Assembly: GCF_022869165.1 (NCBI RefSeq)
Contig: NZ_CP094929.1
Span: forward strand, 620,001-684,000
Source of the DNA: Sphaerochaeta associata
GTDB lineage: Bacteria; Spirochaetota; Spirochaetia; Sphaerochaetales; Sphaerochaetaceae
DNA length: 64,000 nt
Direction: 5' to 3'
The first letter of the stretch is position 1; each line of letters opens with the position of its first letter. The position numbers and the translations under genes are program-made. The notes below the pieces were generated by a model. The model did not search any database. It saw only the letters and a program-made list of their open reading frames with translations, and had not been told where the DNA came from. This document shows, piece by piece, positions 20,519-32,782 of the stretch.

Positions 20519-22579
20519 ATGATCAAAACCGTACACGTGGTTTTCAAGACACATCTGGACATTGGTTTCACTGATTTTGCTGCAAGAACCATCGAACGGT
20601 ATCACAAGCAATTCATTCCTCAGGCGATCGAGGTGGCAAAGCAGCTTCGACGAAGGGGAGGAAAAGAACGCTTGGTGTGGACCACCGGCAGTTGGCTGGT
20701 GAAGGACTACCTCGAGGCATCGGGTCCTGAGGAGAAGGCCTTGTTCGTCGACGCGGTCGAGGCGGGCGACATCACCTGGCACGCCCTGCCGTTCACCACT
20801 CATACCGAGTTGATGAGCGGCCCTTTGGTTGAATACGCGCTCTCCTTATCACAGAACCTTGATGCACGATTCGGCCACACTACCATAGCTGCAAAAATGA
20901 CCGATGTGCCGGGCCATACCCTTGCCTTGGTACCTTTCCTTGCCAAGGCCGGGGTGCAGTTTCTTCACATCGGAGTGAATGGAGGGTCTCCCTTGCCAGA
21001 TGTACCTCCGCTTTTTGTCTGGCGGGCTCCCACCGGCGAAGAAGTGCTTGTTCAGTACGATGCCTCCTACGGCTCATCCGAGCCCATCGGCGAACTGGAG
21101 GATGTACTGGTCATCGAAAACAGCGCGGATAATGCAGGACCTCCCAAAGCCGAGGAGGTATATGCCGTATTCGAGAAATTGGAGAAGAAGTATCCCGGCT
21201 CGGTCATTATGGCAAGCGACCTTAGTTCCTACGCACGTGCAATCCTGCCGTTCAAGCATACACTCCCAGTTGTGAAGGGAGAAATCGGGGATACCTGGAT
21301 TCATGGTATCGGCAGCGATCCTTACAAAGTCAGCTGCCTCAAGCGCCTGCTAGCCTGGGCGCAGACTAACGTCGAGGTATTGGGCAACGACCGCTTCATG
21401 GATCGGCTCTTGATGATCTGCGAACATACCTGGGGCATGGACTTCAAGAAGTACCTGGGCGATTACACCAACTATGCAATCGAGGATTTTCACCGGGCAA
21501 GGGAACAGGATATAGTCGCTGCTTCGGCGGTGCCTCCCGCCTACCGGTTCATCGAGGCGTTCGCCCAAAAAGAGTATGCCCATATTTTCGGTGAGCAGGA
21601 CCAAAGGCGAAAGACGCGCAGGTACTCGCTCTTTTCTGCAAGCCATCAGGAGCAGCGCTCGTATGTCGAGCAGGCAATCGCTTCTCTTCCTCCTCTGTTG
21701 CGCCAACAAGCACCTGATAGTCTGAAACCACGGAATACTTCAATCGATCGCAAAGAAAAACCTGCTTATAGGTTATCGTCCAATACCCCTATACAGATTG
21801 GATCGGTACAGGTGGTCATTGCCGATGACGGCAGCATATCCTCGCTTCTGACCTCTGAGGGAAGACAGATGGCCAAAGGGGAGGGTATCGGCGTGTACCG
21901 CTATGAGAGCTTCAGCTCCGCTGATTACGACCGGTTCCATCATCAGTACAACCGCAACTTTGAGTCAGGAAGGGATTGGATTCTTGCCGATTATGGAAAG
22001 CCGGGGATGGAGGCCTTGCAACCTGCGCCCGAGCATCGCTTGTGCAAGGCCCGGCTCACGGATTTGGTCCGCTGTGATGCAAAGGATATCGTACAAATCC
22101 GTGCGAGCCTTGAGGCTGACGAAGAGAGTCCCAGGGGTGCTCCGAAGCATATACACATACTGTATTGCTTCAGCAAGGCAGGAACCCTTGTTGAGATTAC
22201 GCTTGCTTGGAACGAAAAGGAGGCGACGCGGCTTCCCGAGGCTTTGTGGCTTTCAATAGGGCTCAACACTGAAGAGGGGGGAACCTGGCGAATGCGAAAG
22301 CTCGGGCAATCGCTGCCTCTGGACACCACGGTATCGAAGGGGGCGCGCAGTATTCACGCTGTTGAAGGCCTTGCCTATGAGCATGCAACAAAGCCTCTTC
22401 TCATCGAGAACCTTGATTCACCGTTGGTTTCGCTTGGTCAGCGCAAACTGCTGTGCTTTGATGATGAGCTGCCCCGAAACGACGGGGTCTTTCACTTCAA
22501 CCTGTACAACAACATCTGGAATACCAATTTCCCCCTCTGGTGTGAGGAGGATGGTAGGAGCACGCTTCGATTTACCTAG
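20519..22579 (+). CDS. DUF5054-family, GH38-like glycoside hydrolase
   Basis: A 686-aa protein with no signal peptide. The N-terminal half resembles the catalytic domain of alpha-mannosidase-type (GH38) enzymes. It shows H12 and D14 in KTHLDIGF (the HxD zinc-ligand motif), WTTGSWLV, MTDVPGHTLALVPFLAKAG (a probable nucleophile-loop aspartate) and WIHGIGSDP. The C-terminal half is beta-rich and unassigned. It starts after AAGGAGAGAA. It would act in the cytoplasm on imported oligosaccharides. The specific sugar is unknown. It is divergent from the AraC gene and ends overlapping the convergent 22576 gene by 4 bp. Confidence 0.8.
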   Translation: MIKTVHVVFKTHLDIGFTDFAARTIERYHKQFIPQAIEVAKQLRRRGGKERLVWTTGSWLVKDYLEASGPEEKALFVDAVEAGDITWHALPFTTHTELMSGPLVEYALSLSQNLDARFGHTTIAAKMTDVPGHTLALVPFLAKAGVQFLHIGVNGGSPLPDVPPLFVWRAPTGEEVLVQYDASYGSSEPIGELEDVLVIENSADNAGPPKAEEVYAVFEKLEKKYPGSVIMASDLSSYARAILPFKHTLPVVKGEIGDTWIHGIGSDPYKVSCLKRLLAWAQTNVEVLGNDRFMDRLLMICEHTWGMDFKKYLGDYTNYAIEDFHRAREQDIVAASAVPPAYRFIEAFAQKEYAHIFGEQDQRRKTRRYSLFSASHQEQRSYVEQAIASLPPLLRQQAPDSLKPRNTSIDRKEKPAYRLSSNTPIQIGSVQVVIADDGSISSLLTSEGRQMAKGEGIGVYRYESFSSADYDRFHHQYNRNFESGRDWILADYGKPGMEALQPAPEHRLCKARLTDLVRCDAKDIVQIRASLEADEESPRGAPKHIHILYCFSKAGTLVEITLAWNEKEATRLPEALWLSIGLNTEEGGTWRMRKLGQSLPLDTTVSKGARSIHAVEGLAYEHATKPLLIENLDSPLVSLGQRKLLCFDDELPRNDGVFHFNLYNNIWNTNFPLWCEEDGRSTLRFT

Positions 22580-23352
22580 GCTTCGACACCCCAGACTTCA
22601 ATCTGGGTGAGGGCCGGGAAGGGGGACGGGTCGCGCTCGTCCTTCTTCAGGTCATGCAAGGTAAGGCTGGTTACCACTTTTTCCTTGATCGGAAAGCGTT
22701 GTGGAAGGGCGTCCTTCTGTAGTGCCAAGGTATAGGTCTCACCTGTATCATCGGTAACCGAGGCTTCGGTCCACCAGCTGTCATGCGGCCAATCAGCACG
22801 GAGGGTGAGCCTGATCTCATCAATGCGCACCGGTCTGCCGAAATCGAGGGTGAGCTCGGCTTTGGGGTCGCGGTTTATCCCCCAGCTCTCAAACGGGTAA
22901 TTCCCATGGCTATGGTTTGCAAAGTTCCCGTCAATCGCATTGCGTGCTGCAAATACCATCTCCCCGCGGGTCTCCACATTTGCCTTGGCCTGGGGGAATA
23001 TTCCTTGGGTGTGATGATGGTCGTACGGGTTGAGTGCGAGGTTTCTTCGGCAGGTTTGCTCCACCTTTGCAAGGGTAAGCAGGTGCATCGAACCTAGAAA
23101 AGCCTGGACTGGATAGCAGGTGCGCAGTGCAGGCTGCAGGGGAATGGCATAGCGGGCTTCCTTCTCAAGGTAGACCACCTGGTTGCCCAGCGTCTCATCA
23201 AGTTGAATCTGATAGAGGCCGCCCTGGGGAACATGGATGACGATCTGGTCTCCTTCATTGTAGGCAGCCTGATGGACCAAGGCGCAGCCATAGCCGCAGT
23301 CGACGCTCTGTCTGATAATGTTTTGATCCCTGTCCTGAATTTCGATGTGCAT
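22576..23352 (-). CDS. Carbohydrate-binding-like protein (F5/8 type C-like domain)
   Basis: A 258-aa protein without an evident signal peptide. The N-terminal 80 residues are unassigned. The C-terminal half looks like a discoidin/F5-8C-type beta-sandwich, with FAARNAIDGNFANHSHG, SWGINRDPKAELTLDFGRPVRIDEIRLTLRAD and TQIEVWGVE. Such domains usually bind sugars. A cytoplasmic location would be unusual for one. It is monocistronic and convergent with the DUF5054 gene. Function is not known. Confidence 0.6.
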   Translation of the reverse strand: MHIEIQDRDQNIIRQSVDCGYGCALVHQAAYNEGDQIVIHVPQGGLYQIQLDETLGNQVVYLEKEARYAIPLQPALRTCYPVQAFLGSMHLLTLAKVEQTCRRNLALNPYDHHHTQGIFPQAKANVETRGEMVFAARNAIDGNFANHSHGNYPFESWGINRDPKAELTLDFGRPVRIDEIRLTLRADWPHDSWWTEASVTDDTGETYTLALQKDALPQRFPIKEKVVTSLTLHDLKKDERDPSPFPALTQIEVWGVEA

Positions 23353-23402: not shown

Positions 23403-24113
23403 ATGCTTTTGTTCGTCCATGGTTATGGTATGGATTGTACATATATAGGTCACAGCACCTTTCTCCTTGAGACAGAGCATGTGTTGCTTCTTTTCGATTA
23501 CACCGGAGGCCCGTTGGAAGTTAAGGACGGAAAGAAGAGCCTGCTGGTGTTTTCCAGCCACCGTCACACAGATCACTTCAATGAAACGATTTTCTCTCTT
23601 GCACGACGGGAAGGGAATACCGTTTTCATTCTCTCCTCGGACATCGCCACCCATCTCGTCCCACAGAACGTACAGGTTCGTTGGATGGGCCCGTATGAGG
23701 AGGTGAGTATCGACGAAGTGGCCGTCAGGACGTTGAAGTCGACGGACGAGGGTGTTGCATTTGTTCTGCAGGTTGATGGAAAGACCATCTACTATGCAGG
23801 GGATTTGAACCATTGGCATTGGGAGGGGGAGAGCGAGGCCTACAACCTGCAGATGAAGCGCGACTACTACGCCGAATTGAGATTGCTTCCCGCCAAACTC
23901 GACATTGCCTTCGTGCCTGTAGACCCCAGGCTCGGTCCTTTCTACAGTCTGGGTGCGAAAGACCTGGTGGAGAGAGTGAAGGTTAAAACACTCATCCCCA
24001 TGCACTTTTGGAAGGACCACTCGGTATGTGAAAAGCTGAAAGCCGAGCTCAAGGATACGGACGTCACGGTAGTACAACTCACCCATGAAAATCAAACTTG
24101 GAGGATTCTATGA
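23403..24113 (+). CDS. MBL-fold metal-dependent hydrolase
   Basis: A 236-aa protein of the metallo-beta-lactamase fold, UlaG/YtnP-like in outline. It has the metal motif SSHRHTDHF (H53, H55, D57, H58), a YYAGDLNHWHWEG stretch providing the bridging aspartate, and a C-terminal IPMHFWKD histidine. An in-frame ATG at codon 10 (23430) may be the true start, because neither site has a clear ribosome-binding site. The gene overlaps the next one (ATGA), so it is coupled to a glyoxalase-I-like enzyme. It could hydrolyse a thioester or lactone made by its partner. Confidence 0.8.
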   Translation: MLLFVHGYGMDCTYIGHSTFLLETEHVLLLFDYTGGPLEVKDGKKSLLVFSSHRHTDHFNETIFSLARREGNTVFILSSDIATHLVPQNVQVRWMGPYEEVSIDEVAVRTLKSTDEGVAFVLQVDGKTIYYAGDLNHWHWEGESEAYNLQMKRDYYAELRLLPAKLDIAFVPVDPRLGPFYSLGAKDLVERVKVKTLIPMHFWKDHSVCEKLKAELKDTDVTVVQLTHENQTWRIL

Positions 24114-24484
24114 AGTTTACCTTTACACACAATAATTTCAATGTCACCGATCTTGAGAAGTCGCTTGCGTTCTACAAAGAGGCTTTGGGCTTGGTGGAGG
24201 TTCGACGCAAGGTTGCCACCGACAATTCCTTTATTCTTGTCTTCCTCGGTGACGGAGTGTCCAAGCACCAGCTCGAGCTTACGTGGCTGCGCAACTGGGA
24301 GAAAGGCACCTACAACTTGGGGGACAATGAGTTCCATCTGGCTTTCGAGGTGGACGACATGGAAGCCGCCCGTGCCAAGCATCGCGAGATGGGGTGCATC
24401 TGTTACGAGAATGCCAACATGGGCATCTATTTCATTGTGGACCCTGATGGATACTGGTTGGAGATTGTCCCCAAGAGGCAATGA
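24110..24484 (+). CDS. gloA: Lactoylglutathione lyase-like protein (VOC family)
   Basis: The start is the ATG at 24110, preceded by GGAGGATTCT and overlapping the MBL stop. An in-frame TTG upstream lies in the ribosome-binding site. The protein is 124 aa, a standard glyoxalase I length. The two beta-alpha-beta-beta-beta modules carry the expected metal ligands: a histidine near 7 (THNNFNV), a glutamate in QLELTW, a histidine in NEFHLAFEVDD and a glutamate in WLEIVPK. Glyoxalase I converts the methylglyoxal-thiol hemithioacetal to a lactoyl thioester, which would protect a cell with heavy sugar flux. A non-glutathione thiol is possible. Confidence 0.85.
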   Translation: MKFTFTHNNFNVTDLEKSLAFYKEALGLVEVRRKVATDNSFILVFLGDGVSKHQLELTWLRNWEKGTYNLGDNEFHLAFEVDDMEAARAKHREMGCICYENANMGIYFIVDPDGYWLEIVPKRQ

Positions 24485-24570
24485 GACGGGCCTTTCAGTC
24501 TCTTGAGCTTGTGAGCCTAAAGTTCTATGCTTGGCCTGCATTCATATGAACGTATGTGGGGGTGGGTGGG

Positions 24571-26199
24571 ATGCGTAAAGCTGATAGTCCAAAACAAGCT
24601 ACATTTATTTCCGACTTGAAAGGTGAATTCTCCTCGTATTCGGCGGCCTCGTTTTCCAAGGACCTGTTGGCAGGTCTGACGGTGACAGCCGTCGCCCTGC
24701 CGCTGGCTCTTGCCTTCGGAGTGAGCTCCGGCCTGGATGCCGCCAGCGGTCTGATTACAGCAATTCTGGCAGGCCTGATCATTGGGGCCCTGGGTGGGGC
24801 CTCTTTTCAGATTTCCGGGCCAACCGGTGCCATGGCTGCCATTCTAGTCAGTCTGGTCGTCCGCCACGGTACCGAAGGTGTATTCATCGCCGGGTTCCTC
24901 AGCGGCCTCATTCTTCTGGCTGCAGCCTACCTGAAAGTGGGAGCCTTGGTGTCTTACATTCCCAGCCCTGTTGTTACCGGATTTACCAGTGGAATCGCCG
25001 TCATCATCGCTTTGGGCCAGATTGACAACTTTTTCGGCACATCCAGCAGTGGAGAGGGTGCGCTGGCCAAGCTGTTCTCCTATACTTCTCTTGGATTTCC
25101 CATCGACCTCGCCACCTTGGGGTATGGCTTGTTTGTGGTGCTGTTGATGATTCTGTGGCCCAAAAAATGGAATGCTCGATTCCCTGCAAGTCTGCTGGGT
25201 ATAATCATTACCTTGGTCGTACAAATGCTTCTGGACCTTCCGGTGAAGGAAGTCGGCATGATCCCCCGTTCCTTGTTGGGAGAGAACAGGCTGCATATTT
25301 TCGCGCTTCCCCTATCCGAGTTGTCCCAGTATATCTCCCCGGCGATTTCCATTGCAGCGCTTGGCATGGTCGAGAGTCTGCTTTGCGGAAGTTCTGCAGG
25401 AAAGATGAAGGGGGAGAAACTCAATGCCACCCGGGAGCTGTATGCCCAGGGCATCGGTAATGTAATCATTCCCTTCTTCGGAGGCATCCCTGCTACTGCG
25501 GCCATCGCCCGTACCTCAGTGGCGATCAAGAGCGGACAGCAGACCCGCCTGACCGGCATCATTCATGCAATCGGACTGCTCGCTTCGATGTTCCTCCTCT
25601 CCCCGTACATGAGCAGGATTCCTCTGGCTTCATTGGCCGGGGTGTTGATGGTTACCGCGTGGAGGATGAATGAGTGGCACTCCATTCGCCAGATTTTCTC
25701 CAAGAAAATCAAGACATCGATGGCCCAATTCCTTATAACCATGGTGGCTACCGTAGTTTTCGACCTTACCATCGCCATTCTCATCGGTCTGATTTTCTCA
25801 ATGGTGATGTTCATCATCCGCAGTCATCATATTTCCATTGAAGTTGATCCCGTAACTGCTGAGCTCGGATCCTATGATGCAACAACCAAGGTTGTCTATG
25901 TTGATGGTTCGCTGTTCTTCGGCAGCCAGGAACAACTTACCAGGACGGTGGAGGGCCTGCTTTCTGAGGGGGTGGATCGTATTATTTTCAGCCTTCGCGG
26001 AGTTGCCACCATCGACCACAGCTCGATCAATGAGTTCGTTGAAATCGTGCAGATGTGCAGAAAGCAATCGGTGGAAGTACTGTTTTGCGGTGTGCAACCT
26101 TCGGTTCAGTCTCTGATGAAGCGCCTGGATTTCTACTCCCTGGTGGGAGAGGAGAAGTTCTTCTCCTCTGCTGTGACCGCCTTGGAGTCGCTTAGGTAA
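24571..26199 (+). CDS. SulP-family anion transporter with C-terminal STAS domain
   Basis: Taken from the ATG at 24571 (542 aa). An in-frame GTG at 24556 would add five residues, and the G-rich run between them makes the choice uncertain. Ten or more hydrophobic segments carry the SulP signature region ALPLALAFGVSSGLDAASGL and SGPTGAMAA. From about residue 430 there is a cytoplasmic STAS domain (VVYVDGSLFFGSQ, RGVATIDHSSINEFVEI). Family members move sulfate, bicarbonate or other anions. Substrate is unknown here. It stands alone, convergent with the next AraC gene and overlapping it by 8 bp. Confidence 0.9.
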   Translation: MRKADSPKQATFISDLKGEFSSYSAASFSKDLLAGLTVTAVALPLALAFGVSSGLDAASGLITAILAGLIIGALGGASFQISGPTGAMAAILVSLVVRHGTEGVFIAGFLSGLILLAAAYLKVGALVSYIPSPVVTGFTSGIAVIIALGQIDNFFGTSSSGEGALAKLFSYTSLGFPIDLATLGYGLFVVLLMILWPKKWNARFPASLLGIIITLVVQMLLDLPVKEVGMIPRSLLGENRLHIFALPLSELSQYISPAISIAALGMVESLLCGSSAGKMKGEKLNATRELYAQGIGNVIIPFFGGIPATAAIARTSVAIKSGQQTRLTGIIHAIGLLASMFLLSPYMSRIPLASLAGVLMVTAWRMNEWHSIRQIFSKKIKTSMAQFLITMVATVVFDLTIAILIGLIFSMVMFIIRSHHISIEVDPVTAELGSYDATTKVVYVDGSLFFGSQEQLTRTVEGLLSEGVDRIIFSLRGVATIDHSSINEFVEIVQMCRKQSVEVLFCGVQPSVQSLMKRLDFYSLVGEEKFFSSAVTALESLR

Positions 26200-27133
26200 A
26201 GCGACTGGTGAAAATCCGCTGGTACTGCTTGGGGCTCATTGCCATGACCTTGCGGAACTGGCGGGAGAAATAATTGGGGTCCTTGAAGCCGCACGCCTCA
26301 CTCACCTGACCCATGGAAAGGCCTCGCTCCTGGATGAGCGAGCATGCGTGGGCAATGCGCTTGTGGATGTGGAACTCTATAGGTGAAAGGCCTGTACTCT
26401 GCTTGAAACAGCGGTTGAGCGTGCTGGTGCTCATGTTTGCTATTGCGACAAGGTCTTCGGTGGTGAGGGCCTTGTCAAGGTTCCCGTCCATATAGGAGAT
26501 CACCTCCCATAATCTGCGGGCGGTCTGGTTTGTCTCACGGGGAATCTGGTCGTAAATGCGTGATATTTGGACAAGAAGCTCGATGAGGTAGGCGTAGGCA
26601 AGGGTTCTTGAACCAGAGCCGTAGCTTTGGTCGTCTGCTTCCTTTTCCATGAGCTGGACCAGAGGTATGAGTTCGGCGATTTGGGATGGGGAGAGCGTAA
26701 GCCCCACGATGTGTTCTGATTGCAGGAAAATGGTACAAAAGCCGGGCAATTCGGTCAGATCCAAGGCATGACGGGTGATGAGATTCCTTCCATAGAGAAT
26801 GTTGTACAGTACGAGGTTTTCGACATCCTTGTACCCGTGTTCGACTCCCGGGGGAATGAAAAACACCGAACCCTCGCGCAGCGGTATCTGTTCGGTTGCG
26901 GTAAAGTTAATGCCCCTGCCGCTGATGACAATTACAAGTTCATGAAACTCATGGCTGTGGAGCCGGTAGGGGAGCTCCGGGTCACGCTTGATCACCTTCA
27001 GCTGCATCGTAGGCTCATAGAAGAAGGAATTTTCAGTAAGGATGGTCTCACTCATGCCGAAATGGTTGTCCATCCCCCACTGTTTGTCAAGAACCATTGG
27101 TAGGGAGTTGTCCAGTTTTGTATTGTGTGACAC
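26192..27133 (-). CDS. AraC-family transcriptional regulator (RhaS-like)
   Basis: A protein of up to 313 aa with an N-terminal cupin (RLHSHEFHELVIVISGRG, FFIPPGVEHGYKDVE) and C-terminal AraC helices (TEDLVAIANMSTSTLNRCFKQSTGLSP, SMGQVSEACGFKDPNYFSRQFRKVM). The GTG start at 27133 lacks a ribosome-binding site and leaves only 21 bp to the divergent gene at 27155. A start at ATG 27055, just before the cupin, is more plausible and would leave about 100 bp for promoters. It probably responds to a sugar and may control the transaldolase-like gene. Confidence 0.87.
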   Translation of the reverse strand: MSHNTKLDNSLPMVLDKQWGMDNHFGMSETILTENSFFYEPTMQLKVIKRDPELPYRLHSHEFHELVIVISGRGINFTATEQIPLREGSVFFIPPGVEHGYKDVENLVLYNILYGRNLITRHALDLTELPGFCTIFLQSEHIVGLTLSPSQIAELIPLVQLMEKEADDQSYGSGSRTLAYAYLIELLVQISRIYDQIPRETNQTARRLWEVISYMDGNLDKALTTEDLVAIANMSTSTLNRCFKQSTGLSPIEFHIHKRIAHACSLIQERGLSMGQVSEACGFKDPNYFSRQFRKVMAMSPKQYQRIFTSRFT

Positions 27134-27154
27134 ACTGGCTACAGAGGTATTGCC

Positions 27155-27832
27155 ATGGATTTATTGCTTGATACTGCAGATCTTGCAGAAGTGGAACATG
27201 CACTCCAATATTATCCCATCAAGGGAGTTACCACCAATCCAACGATGCTCTCCCGCTTGGAGCAGACTCATGTGCTGTCACACTTGAAAGCTATTCGGGC
27301 TCTTATCGGTGATGAACGGGACTTGCATGTGCAACTGATGGCACGCGACCGAGAGACGATGATCAGGGAAGCCCACCACCTTGCAACACAGTTGGGCGAG
27401 CAGACCTTCATCGCTGTTCCTGTAACCGAGGTGGGTCTTTCGGTCATCAAACAGCTCGCCCAAGAGGGCCTCAATATCACCGCTTCAACGGTTTTCTCCA
27501 CCATCCAAGGGATTCTCGCGATGCTCAGCGGGGCACGCTATGTCGCTGTCTTTTACGACAGGATGCTCAATCTCGACATCGATGCGGGCAGGGTCATCAA
27601 AGAGCTTGCCGGTTTGCTTTGGACGAACACTAGTTCCACCCAGGTCCTTGCTGCGAGTTTTCGCAACGTGGCCGAGGTCACCAATGCCTACGCCAGCGGA
27701 GCCGGAAGCTGCACCGTGCGGCCGGAGCTTCTTTCAACCGGCCTTGCCATGCCCTCGATCAAGAAGGCGGTGCAGGATTTTGCCGATGATTGGAAGAAGG
27801 TCTACGGGGACAAGACTCTCCTGGAGCTTTAG
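27155..27832 (+). CDS. Transaldolase/fructose-6-phosphate aldolase-family protein lacking the Schiff-base lysine
   Basis: A 225-aa protein collinear with short transaldolases (FSA/TalC). It keeps D6 (LLLDTAD) and N28 (GVTTNPT), as well as VPVTEVGL, ITASTVFS.. QG, and VLAASFRN. The residue matching the Schiff-base lysine of FSA (the K of KIPVT) is A87, encoded by GCT in TTCATCGCTGTTCCTGTA. Without this lysine normal aldolase or transaldolase chemistry is not expected. The gene is divergent from an AraC regulator and convergent with the kinase operon (4-bp overlap). It may be a binding or regulatory homologue, or use a displaced lysine. Confidence 0.85.
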   Translation: MDLLLDTADLAEVEHALQYYPIKGVTTNPTMLSRLEQTHVLSHLKAIRALIGDERDLHVQLMARDRETMIREAHHLATQLGEQTFIAVPVTEVGLSVIKQLAQEGLNITASTVFSTIQGILAMLSGARYVAVFYDRMLNLDIDAGRVIKELAGLLWTNTSSTQVLAASFRNVAEVTNAYASGAGSCTVRPELLSTGLAMPSIKKAVQDFADDWKKVYGDKTLLEL

Positions 27833-29301
27833 CAAGAGAGGGCCTTCCCCACCGCTTTCTGCCAACCCAGGTATAGTCTGTCTCGCTCCTTGCTGTCCAT
27901 GCCTGCATGATAGAGTGCCTTCGGTGGTCTGTCGAAAGCCGTCTGTTCATCCAAAATGCCCAGCTTCAACAATGCAAGCAACGCCGGCCCTTGTCCGCTC
28001 AACTCCTCAAGATTCGCCACCCGCACTTCGCTTTGCAATATGTCGGATTGGAACTGCATCAGGAATGTGTCGTTGGTAGGCCCTCCATCGACTCTGAGGC
28101 TCATAATGTCCTTGTGACTGTGTTTCTGCATGAGAAAGAGTATGTCGGCTATTTGATAGGCTATCGCTTCCTCTGCTGCTTTCACTAATTCAGCTTTTCC
28201 TGTTCGGCGGTCCATGCCGATGATCAGGGCTCTGGCATTTGCATCCCAATAGGGGGCACCCAGTCCGGAGAAAGCCGGTACCATGTACAGTCCTTCAACC
28301 ACCCTGGCCGATTGTGCCATTTTACCAGCTTCCTTTGAACTGGCAATGAGACCCAGATCATCGACCAAGTAGGAGATGGTCGCTCCGCTGTAGTTTATAT
28401 TGCCTTCCAGGACATACGTTATGTTTCCATCCATTCCCCAGGCCACACTGGTTACCAAATCCTCACACAACACTGCCTCAGAACCAATATTCATCATGAT
28501 CGAGGAACCGGTGCCATACGTTGCCTTGGTCAATCCCTCCCGGAGGCAGCCTTGTGCAAACAAGGCGCCTTGGGAGTCCCCGAGCACTCCGCATAGAGGA
28601 ACAGACGATTGCAACAAACCTCCGATGGTGGTATGAGCGAAGACTGCGTTGGAGTCGCACACCTCGGGCAGGCAATCGAGAGGGATGCCGAATAATTGGG
28701 CCACCTCAATGTCCCAGTCGAGCTTCACAAGGTTCAGCAGCTGGGTTCGTGATGCATTGGAATAATCGGTTTTCACTACCTTCTCCTCACTGAGATGGTG
28801 AAGAAGGAAGCTGTCCATGGTGGAGAGTACAAGCTGTTGATTCTCTGCGGCCTGCCTGACCTGTTCTACATGGTTCAGCAGCCAAGAGAACTTGGCTGCG
28901 CTGAAGTAGGGGGAGAGGTGCAGTCCGGTATGGCTGTGGATCAATGTTTTTTGGTCGCTCAGATTATTGCAGATCTCCTGGGCACGTCCGCACTGCCAGA
29001 CGATGGCGTTGTAAAGCGGATTGCCGGTGGTTCGGTCCCAAGCCAGGGCTGTCTCCCTCTGGTTGGAGATTGAGACGGCCTTGATGCAATTACGGTCAAC
29101 TCCGGTTTGAAGGAGCAACTGTTCCGCCGCCTTGAAGACATTGGCAAGAATCTCCTGTGCATCGTGTTCCACCCATCCCTGGTCGTTGATGATTTGTCGG
29201 TGAGGGATGTCCGCTCTGCCAACCAATGCCGCGTTCCGGTCAAACAGGAGGGCTTTGGTTGTAGAAGTGCTTTGGTCGAAACTGAGAATATATTGGTTCA
29301 T
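27829..29301 (-). CDS. FGGY-family carbohydrate kinase
   Basis: The start is the ATG at 29301 after AGAGGAAG, giving 490 aa. A GTG one codon upstream is also in frame. N-terminal phosphate loop DQSTSTTKALLFD, then SNQRETALAWDRTTGNPLYNAIVWQC, GVLGDSQGALFAQG, YGTGSSIMMNIG and FSGLGAPYWDANARA show a glycerol-kinase-like FGGY enzyme with both actin-like domains complete. It phosphorylates a sugar or polyol. Its place after a FucI-like isomerase and two transketolase halves suggests a ketose substrate (such as apulose or a pentulose) rather than glycerol. The start touches the stop of the transketolase C-terminal gene. Confidence 0.92.
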   Translation of the reverse strand: MNQYILSFDQSTSTTKALLFDRNAALVGRADIPHRQIINDQGWVEHDAQEILANVFKAAEQLLLQTGVDRNCIKAVSISNQRETALAWDRTTGNPLYNAIVWQCGRAQEICNNLSDQKTLIHSHTGLHLSPYFSAAKFSWLLNHVEQVRQAAENQQLVLSTMDSFLLHHLSEEKVVKTDYSNASRTQLLNLVKLDWDIEVAQLFGIPLDCLPEVCDSNAVFAHTTIGGLLQSSVPLCGVLGDSQGALFAQGCLREGLTKATYGTGSSIMMNIGSEAVLCEDLVTSVAWGMDGNITYVLEGNINYSGATISYLVDDLGLIASSKEAGKMAQSARVVEGLYMVPAFSGLGAPYWDANARALIIGMDRRTGKAELVKAAEEAIAYQIADILFLMQKHSHKDIMSLRVDGGPTNDTFLMQFQSDILQSEVRVANLEELSGQGPALLALLKLGILDEQTAFDRPPKALYHAGMDSKERDRLYLGWQKAVGKALSC

Positions 29302-30251
29302 CACCGCTTCCTCTGAAGAAGTTTTCTTGCTGATTCTGCTATTCCTTTTGCATCGAGGCCATACTCGCTAAACAGCTCAAGGCTGGTTCCTGTCACCAAG
29401 TACTCATCGGGAAGACCCAAGGTGGTTACGGGAACTGGATGATTCGCACAGACTATCTGGCTTACCGTAGCACCCAGCCCCCCATTGATGCTGTGTTCTT
29501 CCACGGTCAGGATTGCCCCGGTTTCCCCGGCGGCTTTGATGATCGCTTCTTCATCGAACGGCTTGAGTGTGGCCATGTCCAGAACACGGGCTTCAATGCC
29601 CTGAGTCTTGAGCAATGTTGCCGCTTCAAGAGCATGATACACCATCTCCCCGCAGGCGACCAAGGTCAGGTCGCAGCCTTCCTTGAGCGTATTGGCCTTA
29701 CCGAATACAAAGGGTTCCATGCCCAATTCCTCAGTGTACACTGCTGGAACCTTCTCCCTTCCTATACGAAAGAAGACAGCGTCCTTTGTCTGGGCCACTG
29801 AGCGCAGGGCTGCTGCAGTCTGAATGGCATCACAGGGAATGATGAGTGTAAGATCGGGGATGCAGCGAAGAGCTGCAATATCGTGCAGGGTATGGTGGCT
29901 TGCTCCCAAGGCACCGTAACTGATTCCTCCGCTGACTCCCAGAATTTTTACATTCTGATGGGAGTAGGCTACATCCACTTTGATTTGTTCGAGACTACGG
30001 GCCGTCAGGAAGCAGGCGGGAGCGCAGACATAGGGTTTCTTTCCGACCACCGACAGCCCGGCTGCAACGCCAATTTCATTCTGTTCGGCGATTCCAATTT
30101 CCACAAACTGGTCGGGCAGTGTTTTTACATAGGTGTTCAACGAGCATGATCCACGGGCGTCACTGCTGATGACGATGATATCAGGATCGTTTTTGGCCAG
30201 CTCGAGCAGGACCGTCGTATATGCCTCTCGGCATGCTTTAGAGTTTGGCAT
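29301..30251 (-). CDS. Transketolase, C-terminal subunit
   Basis: The start is the ATG at 30251, which overlaps the N-terminal-subunit gene by 14 bp; the 16 codons upstream are ignored. At 316 aa it holds the pyrimidine-binding and C-terminal domains. Recognisable stretches are VISSDARGSCSLNTYV, VEIGIAEQNEIGVAAGLSVVGKKPYV (with the cofactor-activating glutamate E) and ILTVEEHSINGGLGATVSQ. It joins the product of 30238-31077 to form a split ThDP transketolase that moves a two-carbon ketol unit. Split transketolases are common in bacterial accessory sugar pathways. Confidence 0.92.
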   Translation of the reverse strand: MPNSKACREAYTTVLLELAKNDPDIIVISSDARGSCSLNTYVKTLPDQFVEIGIAEQNEIGVAAGLSVVGKKPYVCAPACFLTARSLEQIKVDVAYSHQNVKILGVSGGISYGALGASHHTLHDIAALRCIPDLTLIIPCDAIQTAAALRSVAQTKDAVFFRIGREKVPAVYTEELGMEPFVFGKANTLKEGCDLTLVACGEMVYHALEAATLLKTQGIEARVLDMATLKPFDEEAIIKAAGETGAILTVEEHSINGGLGATVSQIVCANHPVPVTTLGLPDEYLVTGTSLELFSEYGLDAKGIAESARKLLQRKR

Positions 30252-31077
30252 TGCGAAGTTCCTCCTCAAGGCGTGTAAAAGCAGCCATAGCCTCTTCATA
30301 GAGTCCCTTGTTCGGAACCCCGTGGTGCCAGGACGCTACGTTCTCCATCGCCTTCACGCCTTTGCCTTTGATGGTATGGGCGATGATCAACGTTGGTTTT
30401 TCCGGCTTCAGGGGCGTGGACGTCAAGGCTTGAACAACCTCATCCATGGCATTGCCGTCGATCTCCTTGACCTCCCAACCAAAGCTCTCCCATCGGGCTG
30501 CCAGCGGCTCCAAGCTCATGACATCTTCGGTCGAGCCCGAAATCTGCAGATGGTTGCGATCGATGATCGCCACCAGGTTGTCCAACTTGTAGTGGCCTGC
30601 CGCCATAGCAGCTTCCCACACCGAGCCTTCGGCCTGTTCGCCGTCACCCATAAGGGTGAAGACGCGATTGGTCTTGCGGTCTTTTTTTAGTCCAATGGCC
30701 ATCCCCACGGAAATGGACAATCCGTGTCCAAGTGCTCCTGTATTCATCTCGATGCCGGGAATTTTGTTGTTGGGATGTCCAATGAGGCGGCTTTTGAATC
30801 TGCTGAAGGTCTCCAGCTCTTCGGGGGGGAAGAAACCTCGTTCGGCCAGGACTGCAAGATACCCTTCGACGCAATGGCCCTTGGAGAGAATGAAGTAATC
30901 CCTCTCCTCCCAGAATGGGTTGGAAGGGTCCAACTTGAGAACATGGAAAAAGAGTGCGGTCATAATATCGGCGGAGGACAAGGCCCCGCCGGTATGGCCT
31001 GTCTTTGCATGATAAATCATCGATAGCAGGGCCTTGCGTGTCTGCACGGCTTGCACCTTGAGTTCTTGTAGTGTCAT
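30238..31077 (-). CDS. Transketolase, N-terminal subunit
   Basis: The start is the ATG at 31077, preceded by TGAGGAACC; an upstream ATG at 31089 has no ribosome-binding site. The subunit is 279 aa. It binds thiamine diphosphate through GDGEQAEGSVWEAAMAAGHYKLDN..IIDRN, and has the phosphate-binding HAKTGHTGGALSSADI and SKGHCVEGY. It is the second gene of the FucI-like isomerase operon. The catalytic centre is shared with the C-terminal subunit. Confidence 0.92.
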   Translation of the reverse strand: MTLQELKVQAVQTRKALLSMIYHAKTGHTGGALSSADIMTALFFHVLKLDPSNPFWEERDYFILSKGHCVEGYLAVLAERGFFPPEELETFSRFKSRLIGHPNNKIPGIEMNTGALGHGLSISVGMAIGLKKDRKTNRVFTLMGDGEQAEGSVWEAAMAAGHYKLDNLVAIIDRNHLQISGSTEDVMSLEPLAARWESFGWEVKEIDGNAMDEVVQALTSTPLKPEKPTLIIAHTIKGKGVKAMENVASWHHGVPNKGLYEEAMAAFTRLEEELRNAKL

Positions 31078-31089
31078 CTGGTTCCTCAT

Positions 31090-32511
31090 TTACTGCATCG
31101 AGGGGACATCTTCACCCCGGAGGTAGGCTTTCACATCCTCCTCAATCGGATCATAGAAGTCTGGTTCCACGTTGATGTACTTGCAAGCCTCATACAGCAC
31201 GGGAACGATGTTCTGATGGATGCCTACACAGTGGTGGATGTACGGACCGGTGACAATCTTATGTTCAAGCCTCTTGATGTTCTCCACCTCGATCCACAAG
31301 TAGGTCCCCATGCACTTCGGGCCGTCGGTCCCTTCTGCGGTGCCGAGCAGGAGGGAATAGTGTCCATTGTCCCCATCGAATCGACACAGTGTGACCTTTC
31401 CGCTTTTAGCTTCGGCAGTGAGACTTCCAGGATGGTCGAAGGCCAGCGGATAGCCGAGAATCGGCTTCTCCTTTGCCACCGAAACCGGCCAGGGGCCGCA
31501 ATGCTGCAAGAGCTCGCCGTTTGGAATATCGGGGTGTCGGATGGTCCAGTCGGCAAAGAAGGAACGATTCTTTCCCATCCCAGCGGCTTCCACCAACAAG
31601 GCTGTAATAGCTCCATGGATATCGGTCTCACACACTACCGGAATTCCTTCGTCATTCATAAGTGCATTGGCTGCACAAGGCATGATGCCCAATTCAGACT
31701 GCAAGGCGTTCCAGCACTGGATGGCCACCGCCTGACACCCATAGTGGGATGCCAGCTTGGTCATAGCCACTTTCAGCGCTGCAATAACTTCCAGCTGCTC
31801 GTCGGTGACCTGGATGATCATGCTCTCTTTTACATACTGGATCACCTTCTGGATTTCTTGTCGATCAGTTTTCTGACAGTCTCTGATCGTCTGGATCAGT
31901 TCGGGCATGGGGATCGGGGCGAGCTGGACATTGTACTTCTCCAAGAGCTCGCCTTCATTGCACATGGTAGTAAGAAAATCGAAGGGGCGGGTGGATATCT
32001 GCAGGATTCTGATAGACTTGAAGGTCTTTACGACATTGCAGACAGCGAGGAAGTCACGAAGTCCGCGTTCGAACACAGGGTCGCTGAGTCTGCAGTTGGT
32101 CATATAGGTGAAAGGAACCTGGAAGCGTCTGAGAACCTTTCCGGTTGCAAACAGTCCGCACTGGGTGTCGCGCAGTCTCACTCCGTCAGGTTCCGGCCGT
32201 TCATCGAGCGGGCCCCACAGCAGTACAGGCACCCCCATTTCTTTTGCAAGACGGGCGACTACATATTCGGTGCCGAAGTTGCAGTGGGGAAGAAAGAGGC
32301 CGTCGACGCCCTCAGCCTTGAACTTTTGGGCTATTCGCTGCATGTCATGATCGTCATAGAGCAGTCCTTCTTCATTGATATCGGTGATATCGACGAACTC
32401 AATACCCAATTCAAGAAGACGATCGCGGGTAAGGTTGCGGTATTTAATTGCATCGGGTGCACTGAAAATGCTTCTTCGGGTGGGCGCATAGCCCAATTTG
32501 ATGGTAGGCAT
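31090..32511 (-). CDS. L-fucose/L-arabinose isomerase-family protein (COG2407-like)
   Basis: The start is the ATG at 32511 after AAGGAG, giving 473 aa; the 16 codons before it have no support. The fold resembles FucI/AraA-type aldose-ketose isomerases. The likely catalytic metal site is VVCETDIHGAITALLVE (glutamate and aspartate), together with the late histidines in HHCVGIHQNIVP. It heads an operon with the split transketolase and an FGGY kinase, so it probably turns an aldose into the ketose that the kinase phosphorylates. The actual sugar is unknown. Confidence 0.85.
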   Translation of the reverse strand: MPTIKLGYAPTRRSIFSAPDAIKYRNLTRDRLLELGIEFVDITDINEEGLLYDDHDMQRIAQKFKAEGVDGLFLPHCNFGTEYVVARLAKEMGVPVLLWGPLDERPEPDGVRLRDTQCGLFATGKVLRRFQVPFTYMTNCRLSDPVFERGLRDFLAVCNVVKTFKSIRILQISTRPFDFLTTMCNEGELLEKYNVQLAPIPMPELIQTIRDCQKTDRQEIQKVIQYVKESMIIQVTDEQLEVIAALKVAMTKLASHYGCQAVAIQCWNALQSELGIMPCAANALMNDEGIPVVCETDIHGAITALLVEAAGMGKNRSFFADWTIRHPDIPNGELLQHCGPWPVSVAKEKPILGYPLAFDHPGSLTAEAKSGKVTLCRFDGDNGHYSLLLGTAEGTDGPKCMGTYLWIEVENIKRLEHKIVTGPYIHHCVGIHQNIVPVLYEACKYINVEPDFYDPIEEDVKAYLRGEDVPSMQ

Positions 32512-32782
32512 GATGACACTCCTTATAGGATTTATCTCGTTAAGCCCATGGTATTCCAAGTTTTCGTATTCGTCAATGAAAAATATTTCGATTGTTTTCT
32601 TTTGGCTTTCTTTTGTTTACAGTTAAAAAGGTGGTCTCTGAAATATCCAGCTATTGTGAGCAAGATAATTTGTACTTTCAAGCTTCGAACTTGCGATATT
32701 TCGTTAGGATTCAAAAACAAACCTTTTCTTTTCATTTGTTTCCGAGTATGATACCAAAGGAATACGACGAGAGGGTGAAAGC
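32512..32782. promoter_or_regulatory. Divergent control region between FucI-like operon and deoR-type gene
   Basis: A 271-bp AT-rich gap. It contains TTTCGATTGTTTTC near 32586 and other TTCGAA or TTTCG elements (for example CAAGCTTCGAACTTG near 32680), similar to TTCGAAAAC boxes at 33744 and 33761. These are plausible DeoR-family binding sites. A TATGAT (about 32746) may be the -10 of the deoR gene. No firm minus-strand promoter was identified. Confidence 0.45.

Follow-up and report, generated by a model that had tools for sequence, protein, structure and literature searches.

The transaldolase acid-base arrangement is a Glu at position 59 together with Phe131 (residue numbers here and below follow E. 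coli fructose-6-phosphate aldolase, FSA, unless marked as window numbering). FSA becomes inactive when its covalent catalyst, Lys85, is mutated, and its protons are shuttled mainly by Tyr131 (PMC13259622). Engineered proteins that carry one or the other substitution have been crystallised, namely the K86A form of Thermoplasma transaldolase (3s1w, together with glycerol and citrate) and the Y131F form of E. coli FSA (4rxf). Thus, such proteins fold, and the K86A form still holds ligands. These are man-made single mutants rather than members of natural clades.

A lysine-less FSA/TalC-type paralogue

The window, by which we mean the whole 64-kb stretch of DNA that was analysed (G000:C1:620001-684000), is part of a complete 3.55-Mb genome. 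It encodes an FSA/TalC-type paralogue that lacks the Schiff-base lysine, referred to here as TALX. The translation of the open reading frame contains QTFIAVPVTEVG, and the features of interest within the gene are as follows.

27155..27832, + strand: lysine-less FSA/TalC-type paralogue (TALX), 225 aa, ATG start, with A87 for the Schiff-base lysine and F133 for the catalytic tyrosine (window numbering)
27413..27415, + strand: codon GCT, A87, at the position of the Schiff-base lysine (FSA K85) in the alignment to E. coli FSA
27551..27553, + strand: codon TTT, F133, at the position of the proton shuttle (FSA Tyr131) in the alignment to E. coli FSA

TALX is a member of TAL_FSA (PF00923; 128.4 bits in the family profile search, where the cut-off is 27) and also scores above the cut-off of NCBIfam NF009299/PRK12656, "fructose-6-phosphate aldolase" (245.9 bits vs 214). 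With the latter FSA/TalC subfamily (reference structure E. coli FsaA, 1l6w) it shares the fold, the length and the C-terminal helix, as well as D6, T26, N28, Q59, A129, R134 and S166 (D6, T26, N28, Q60, A131, R136 and S168 in window numbering), but it lacks Lys85 (A/S in its place) and the proton-shuttle Tyr131 (F). Where FSA reads KVPVT, TALX reads AVPVT, and A87 is the equivalent of Lys85. The numbering of the E. coli FSA sequence that served as the ruler matches the residues of PMC13259622 and the alignment to 1l6w-type chains.

The original prediction, made from the sequence of the window, placed A87 (GCT) at the Schiff-base position and had D6 and N28 kept, and both points were confirmed by the alignment. 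The replacement of Tyr131 by F133 was not part of that prediction and was found on aligning to E. coli FSA. Judged from this alignment, TALX has neither residue of the catalytic dyad, and the loss of the proton shuttle in addition to the lysine makes a loss of aldolase activity much firmer. Q at 59 with F at 131 corresponds to neither the FSA nor the transaldolase arrangement. To the extent that sequence can decide the matter, Schiff-base aldol chemistry is excluded, and we infer that aldolase activity has been lost. Despite the NF009299 match, TALX is almost certainly not a fructose-6-phosphate aldolase. Because that match would label it as one, Sphaerochaeta metabolic models would carry a false reaction.

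Clade, distribution and selection

Homologues were drawn from searches of the genus, the family, the phylum Spirochaetota and GTDB contigs, and the named relatives recovered with the TALX protein come from Sphaerochaeta and Spirochaetales assemblies. We identified 15 distinct full-length lysine-less proteins, none of which has the Schiff-base lysine on beta4: position 85 is A in 13 (A87 in the window) and S in two, and position 131 is F in all 15. A 16th lysine-less protein, which is truncated, combines S85 with F131. Both K and Y are present in all 19 of the closest lysine-bearing homologues, and a Ligilactobacillus plasmid homologue also retains them. In the tree, the lysine-less proteins are united in a single branch with support of 100/100, which sits inside the lysine-bearing proteins of Sphaerochaeta. 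Thus, the gene arose by duplication within the genus. Whether A87 is common to a clade, a question left by the original prediction, is answered by this branch with A or S in 15/15. A sequencing error, which it had named as one possible refutation, is ruled out because the 15 full-length proteins are distinct and their assemblies are independent.

The lysine-less clade is under strong purifying selection. Pairwise dN/dS values range from 0.017 to 0.085 and are indistinguishable from those of the active paralogue (0.031-0.118). TALX has the attributes of a pseudoenzyme: its clade is monophyletic and constrained, its fold is intact and its catalytic residues are missing.

The lysine-less gene occurs in 17 of the 26 genus genomes and is missing from nine. 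A lysine-bearing copy is present in 16/17 genomes with TALX and in 3/9 without (Fisher p=0.002, uncorrected for phylogeny), a co-occurrence that is confounded by shared ancestry. The lysine-bearing paralogue of the window genome (L002, G000:C1:2629360-2630034) has K and Y intact, is 56% identical to TALX and lies about 2 Mb from it. The two types share genomes and are nearest relatives by the tree. L002 differs in keeping K and Y and in its position beside a Peripla_BP_3 + AraC-HTH regulator; it has no linkage to the AraC gene that adjoins TALX. A third TAL_FSA match in the same genome lies at 65725-66495, within a 351-aa frame. TALX would represent the conversion of an enzyme into a protein without catalysis inside a single genus. 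As the active parent copy persists in these genomes, it may offer a clean system for asking why a dead aldolase is retained.

The locus and its neighbours

Upstream of TALX lie a divergent regulator, candidate promoters for both genes and several conserved neighbours.

22576-23352, - strand: F5/8-type-C-like protein, older conserved neighbour
23403-24113, + strand: metallo-beta-lactamase-fold hydrolase, older conserved neighbour
24098-24484, + strand: glyoxalase-fold VOC protein, older conserved neighbour
24556-26199, + strand: presumably a SulP-type transporter, older conserved neighbour
26192..27055, - strand: AraC/RhaS-type regulator (cupin + HTH_18), divergent, adjoining the lysine-less gene in mapped loci
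27055..27090, - strand: promoter-like sequence of the AraC gene, TTGACA-N17-AACCAT, with a six-base gap to the ATG, putative on the basis of conservation
27108..27136, + strand: candidate promoter of the lysine-less gene (TTGTCC-N17-CACACT), with a function suggested by conservation

The site before TALX follows the pattern TTGTYC-N17-CACWMT, which 11 of 13 loci match exactly (TTGCCC stands in the remaining two) and which occurs once in the 64-kb window. On the AraC side, the geometry TTGACA-N17-hexamer-N6-ATG is found in all 13 aligned loci and in G003, G004 and G022, which have no lysine-less gene. Only six bases separate the -10 hexamer from the ATG, and we therefore predict a near-leaderless AraC transcript. 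The probable start codon of the regulator is the ATG at 27055 (287 aa), the GTG at 27133 being too early. In-frame TAG codons were also noted in a second AraC paralogue; in the one example read, from G000, the TAG is upstream of the probable ATG and thus an alignment artefact.

In the mapped loci the lysine-less gene adjoins the divergent AraC gene, beyond which come the SulP (missing in one subgroup), glyoxalase-fold, metallo-beta-lactamase-fold and F5/8-C-like genes. The opposite flank is occupied by a GNAT gene or by a split transketolase / FGGY kinase / fucose-isomerase-like operon. The AraC-SulP-VOC-MBL cluster is also present in G003, G004 and G022, all without the lysine-less gene. Thus, the aldolase copy moved in beside an existing regulator, and since AraC is older at the locus than the aldolase copy, the linkage may reflect regulation only.

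The window genome has the operon type of flank. The operon (27829-32559, - strand) encodes a glycerol-kinase-like FGGY kinase, a transketolase split into C and N halves, and a 489-aa protein that distantly resembles sulfoquinovose isomerase SftI (104.9 bits vs a cut-off of 700), and a DeoR regulator and an ABC transporter lie next to it. It is possibly a pathway for an unusual sugar. A functional tie between TALX and this transketolase/FGGY-kinase/isomerase operon was considered and is unsupported: the isomerase occurs in 11/17 genomes with TALX and 2/9 without, sometimes elsewhere in the genome. Beyond the F5/8-type-C-like gene, positions 20519-22579 (+ strand) encode a 686-aa protein with DUF5054 (PF16477).

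Pocket, fold and possible roles

The residues that would hold a substrate are conserved. Asp6 and Asn28, which bind the donor, are invariant in 15/15 clade members, as are Arg134 and Ser166 of the phosphate site, where position 168 is R or K. L163 is kept, and T109 is S or T. Overall, 10 of 13 pocket positions are invariant in the clade compared with 103 of the 225 residues of the protein (p=0.02, for 13 chosen positions), a conservation that would also fit a new catalytic activity. Near the mouth, changes specific to the clade were identified (N133->D in 13/15, Y112->F and A110->T). Window residue 189, directly after beta8, is R or K throughout the clade (R in 10/15), and residue 190 is always P. 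Position 189 is mostly P in the paralogues of the genus and is basic in some distant lysine-bearing homologues.

An AlphaFold2 model made for the TALX monomer (mean pLDDT 94, pTM 0.87) is an ordinary FSA barrel. Among solved structures it is closest to FSA and FSA-type transaldolases (Z about 30), and the matches include the engineered 3s1w and 4rxf (Z 29-30). Each of these has one of the two substitutions, whereas the natural TALX unites both.

We consider it fairly probable that TALX is a Sphaerochaeta-specific pseudo-aldolase that binds a sugar phosphate and has a regulatory or scaffold role. In this reading, a PRK12656-type FSA/TalC gene was duplicated inside the genus, and the copy landed in front of the existing AraC regulator. 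In the duplicate, A or S took the place of the Schiff-base lysine and F that of the proton-shuttle tyrosine, with the donor/phosphate pocket (D6, T26, N28, Q59, R134, S166 and the basic 168) and the C-terminal helix held by purifying selection. The intact fold, the conserved pocket, the strong selection and the gene's own promoter-like site together suggest that the protein functions by binding. Most likely, its ligand is a phosphate of a ketose or aldose, which is not turned over. TALX might join the active paralogue in mixed rings, as a subunit without catalysis or as their modulator; alternatively, it might be free and serve the circuit of the divergent AraC regulator as a sensor of, or sink for, sugar phosphate. 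Within the pseudo-aldolase reading, co-assembly with the paralogue and a free sensor are about equally probable. Tentatively, TALX could be a sugar-phosphate-responsive regulatory subunit of the paralogue rings (or a sensor feeding the AraC switch), or could support lysine-independent chemistry in the TAL/FSA fold; we regard this proposal as possible and give it somewhat less than even weight. From the intact fold, the original prediction had suggested binding, regulation, a different reaction or a relocated lysine. The fold and the loss of the Schiff base stood up, a binding or regulatory role is what the sequence and model suggest, and the relocated lysine fell.

The main rival is that TALX is a re-tasked enzyme, acting on a phosphorylated sugar without need of a lysine, as in isomerisation, epimerisation or phosphate-ester chemistry, by means of D6, N28, Q59 and a remodelled beta8 loop. 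It would account for the invariance of D6, N28, Q59, R134 and S166 and for the fixed changes at the mouth, including the basic residue 189 and P190. However, polar catalytic groups were lost (K->A/S, Y->F), no general base or metal site was obviously gained except through N133->D, residue 189 is basic in some lysine-bearing homologues too, and no lysine-independent TAL_FSA enzyme was found in the searches of the present analysis. We judge this explanation unlikely, yet a serious one.

A narrower form of the favoured explanation is that the pseudo-aldolase, on binding a sugar phosphate, contacts or sequesters AraC. In its favour, about 100 bp separate the divergent genes of the mapped loci, and the promoter-like sites between them are paired and conserved. 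The regulator, however, owns a cupin ligand domain and occurs without the pseudo-aldolase in the three genomes named above, and divergent placement alone would be enough for transcriptional control. A direct partnership is doubtful.

That TALX is still an aldolase, through a lysine on another strand, would have precedent in general, as the strand that bears the lysine varies between families of class I aldolases. Among the 15 clade members, however, no alignment column has lysine throughout. All nine lysines of TALX (23, 45, 99, 149, 203, 204, 214, 215 and 220 in window numbering) are on helices or loops of the model and none is on a barrel strand. K23 is S or R in three deep clade members, residue 189 is R in 10/15, and the proton shuttle is lost as well. 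These observations make relocation of the Schiff-base lysine very unlikely. Least credible is a decaying, functionless pseudogene or an assembly error, which would fit the lost catalytic residues and the absence of the gene from 9/26 genus genomes but can hardly be reconciled with an open reading frame intact in every full-length copy, dN/dS of about 0.05 over dS >1, a conserved promoter-like site and a single clade across many independent assemblies.

We found no description of lysine-less transaldolase/FSA homologues in a collection of open-access papers, which is weak evidence of absence. The Sphaerochaetaceae do contain other TAL_FSA members without the Schiff-base lysine. They are on tree branches separate from the TALX clade (some deep branches are weakly supported), and these at least two further losses suggest that lysine loss is a recurrent outcome for the FSA subfamily. 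Unlike in TALX, their pockets are remodelled or destroyed, and their neighbourhoods differ. In L111:300-974 (- strand) and L112:332-1006 (- strand), K->R is accompanied by D6N, N28C, Y131E and S166G. Beside a K->R homologue lie genes for proteins of 454 aa (L122:8408-9769, - strand) and 483 aa (L122:11771-13219, + strand), for which neither Pfam (at 0.001) nor NCBIfam (at 1e-10) gave a match. In L108:307-981 (- strand), K->E occurs together with R134->E; this gene is part of a rhamnulokinase-type operon, the syntenic counterpart of which in G106 keeps K.
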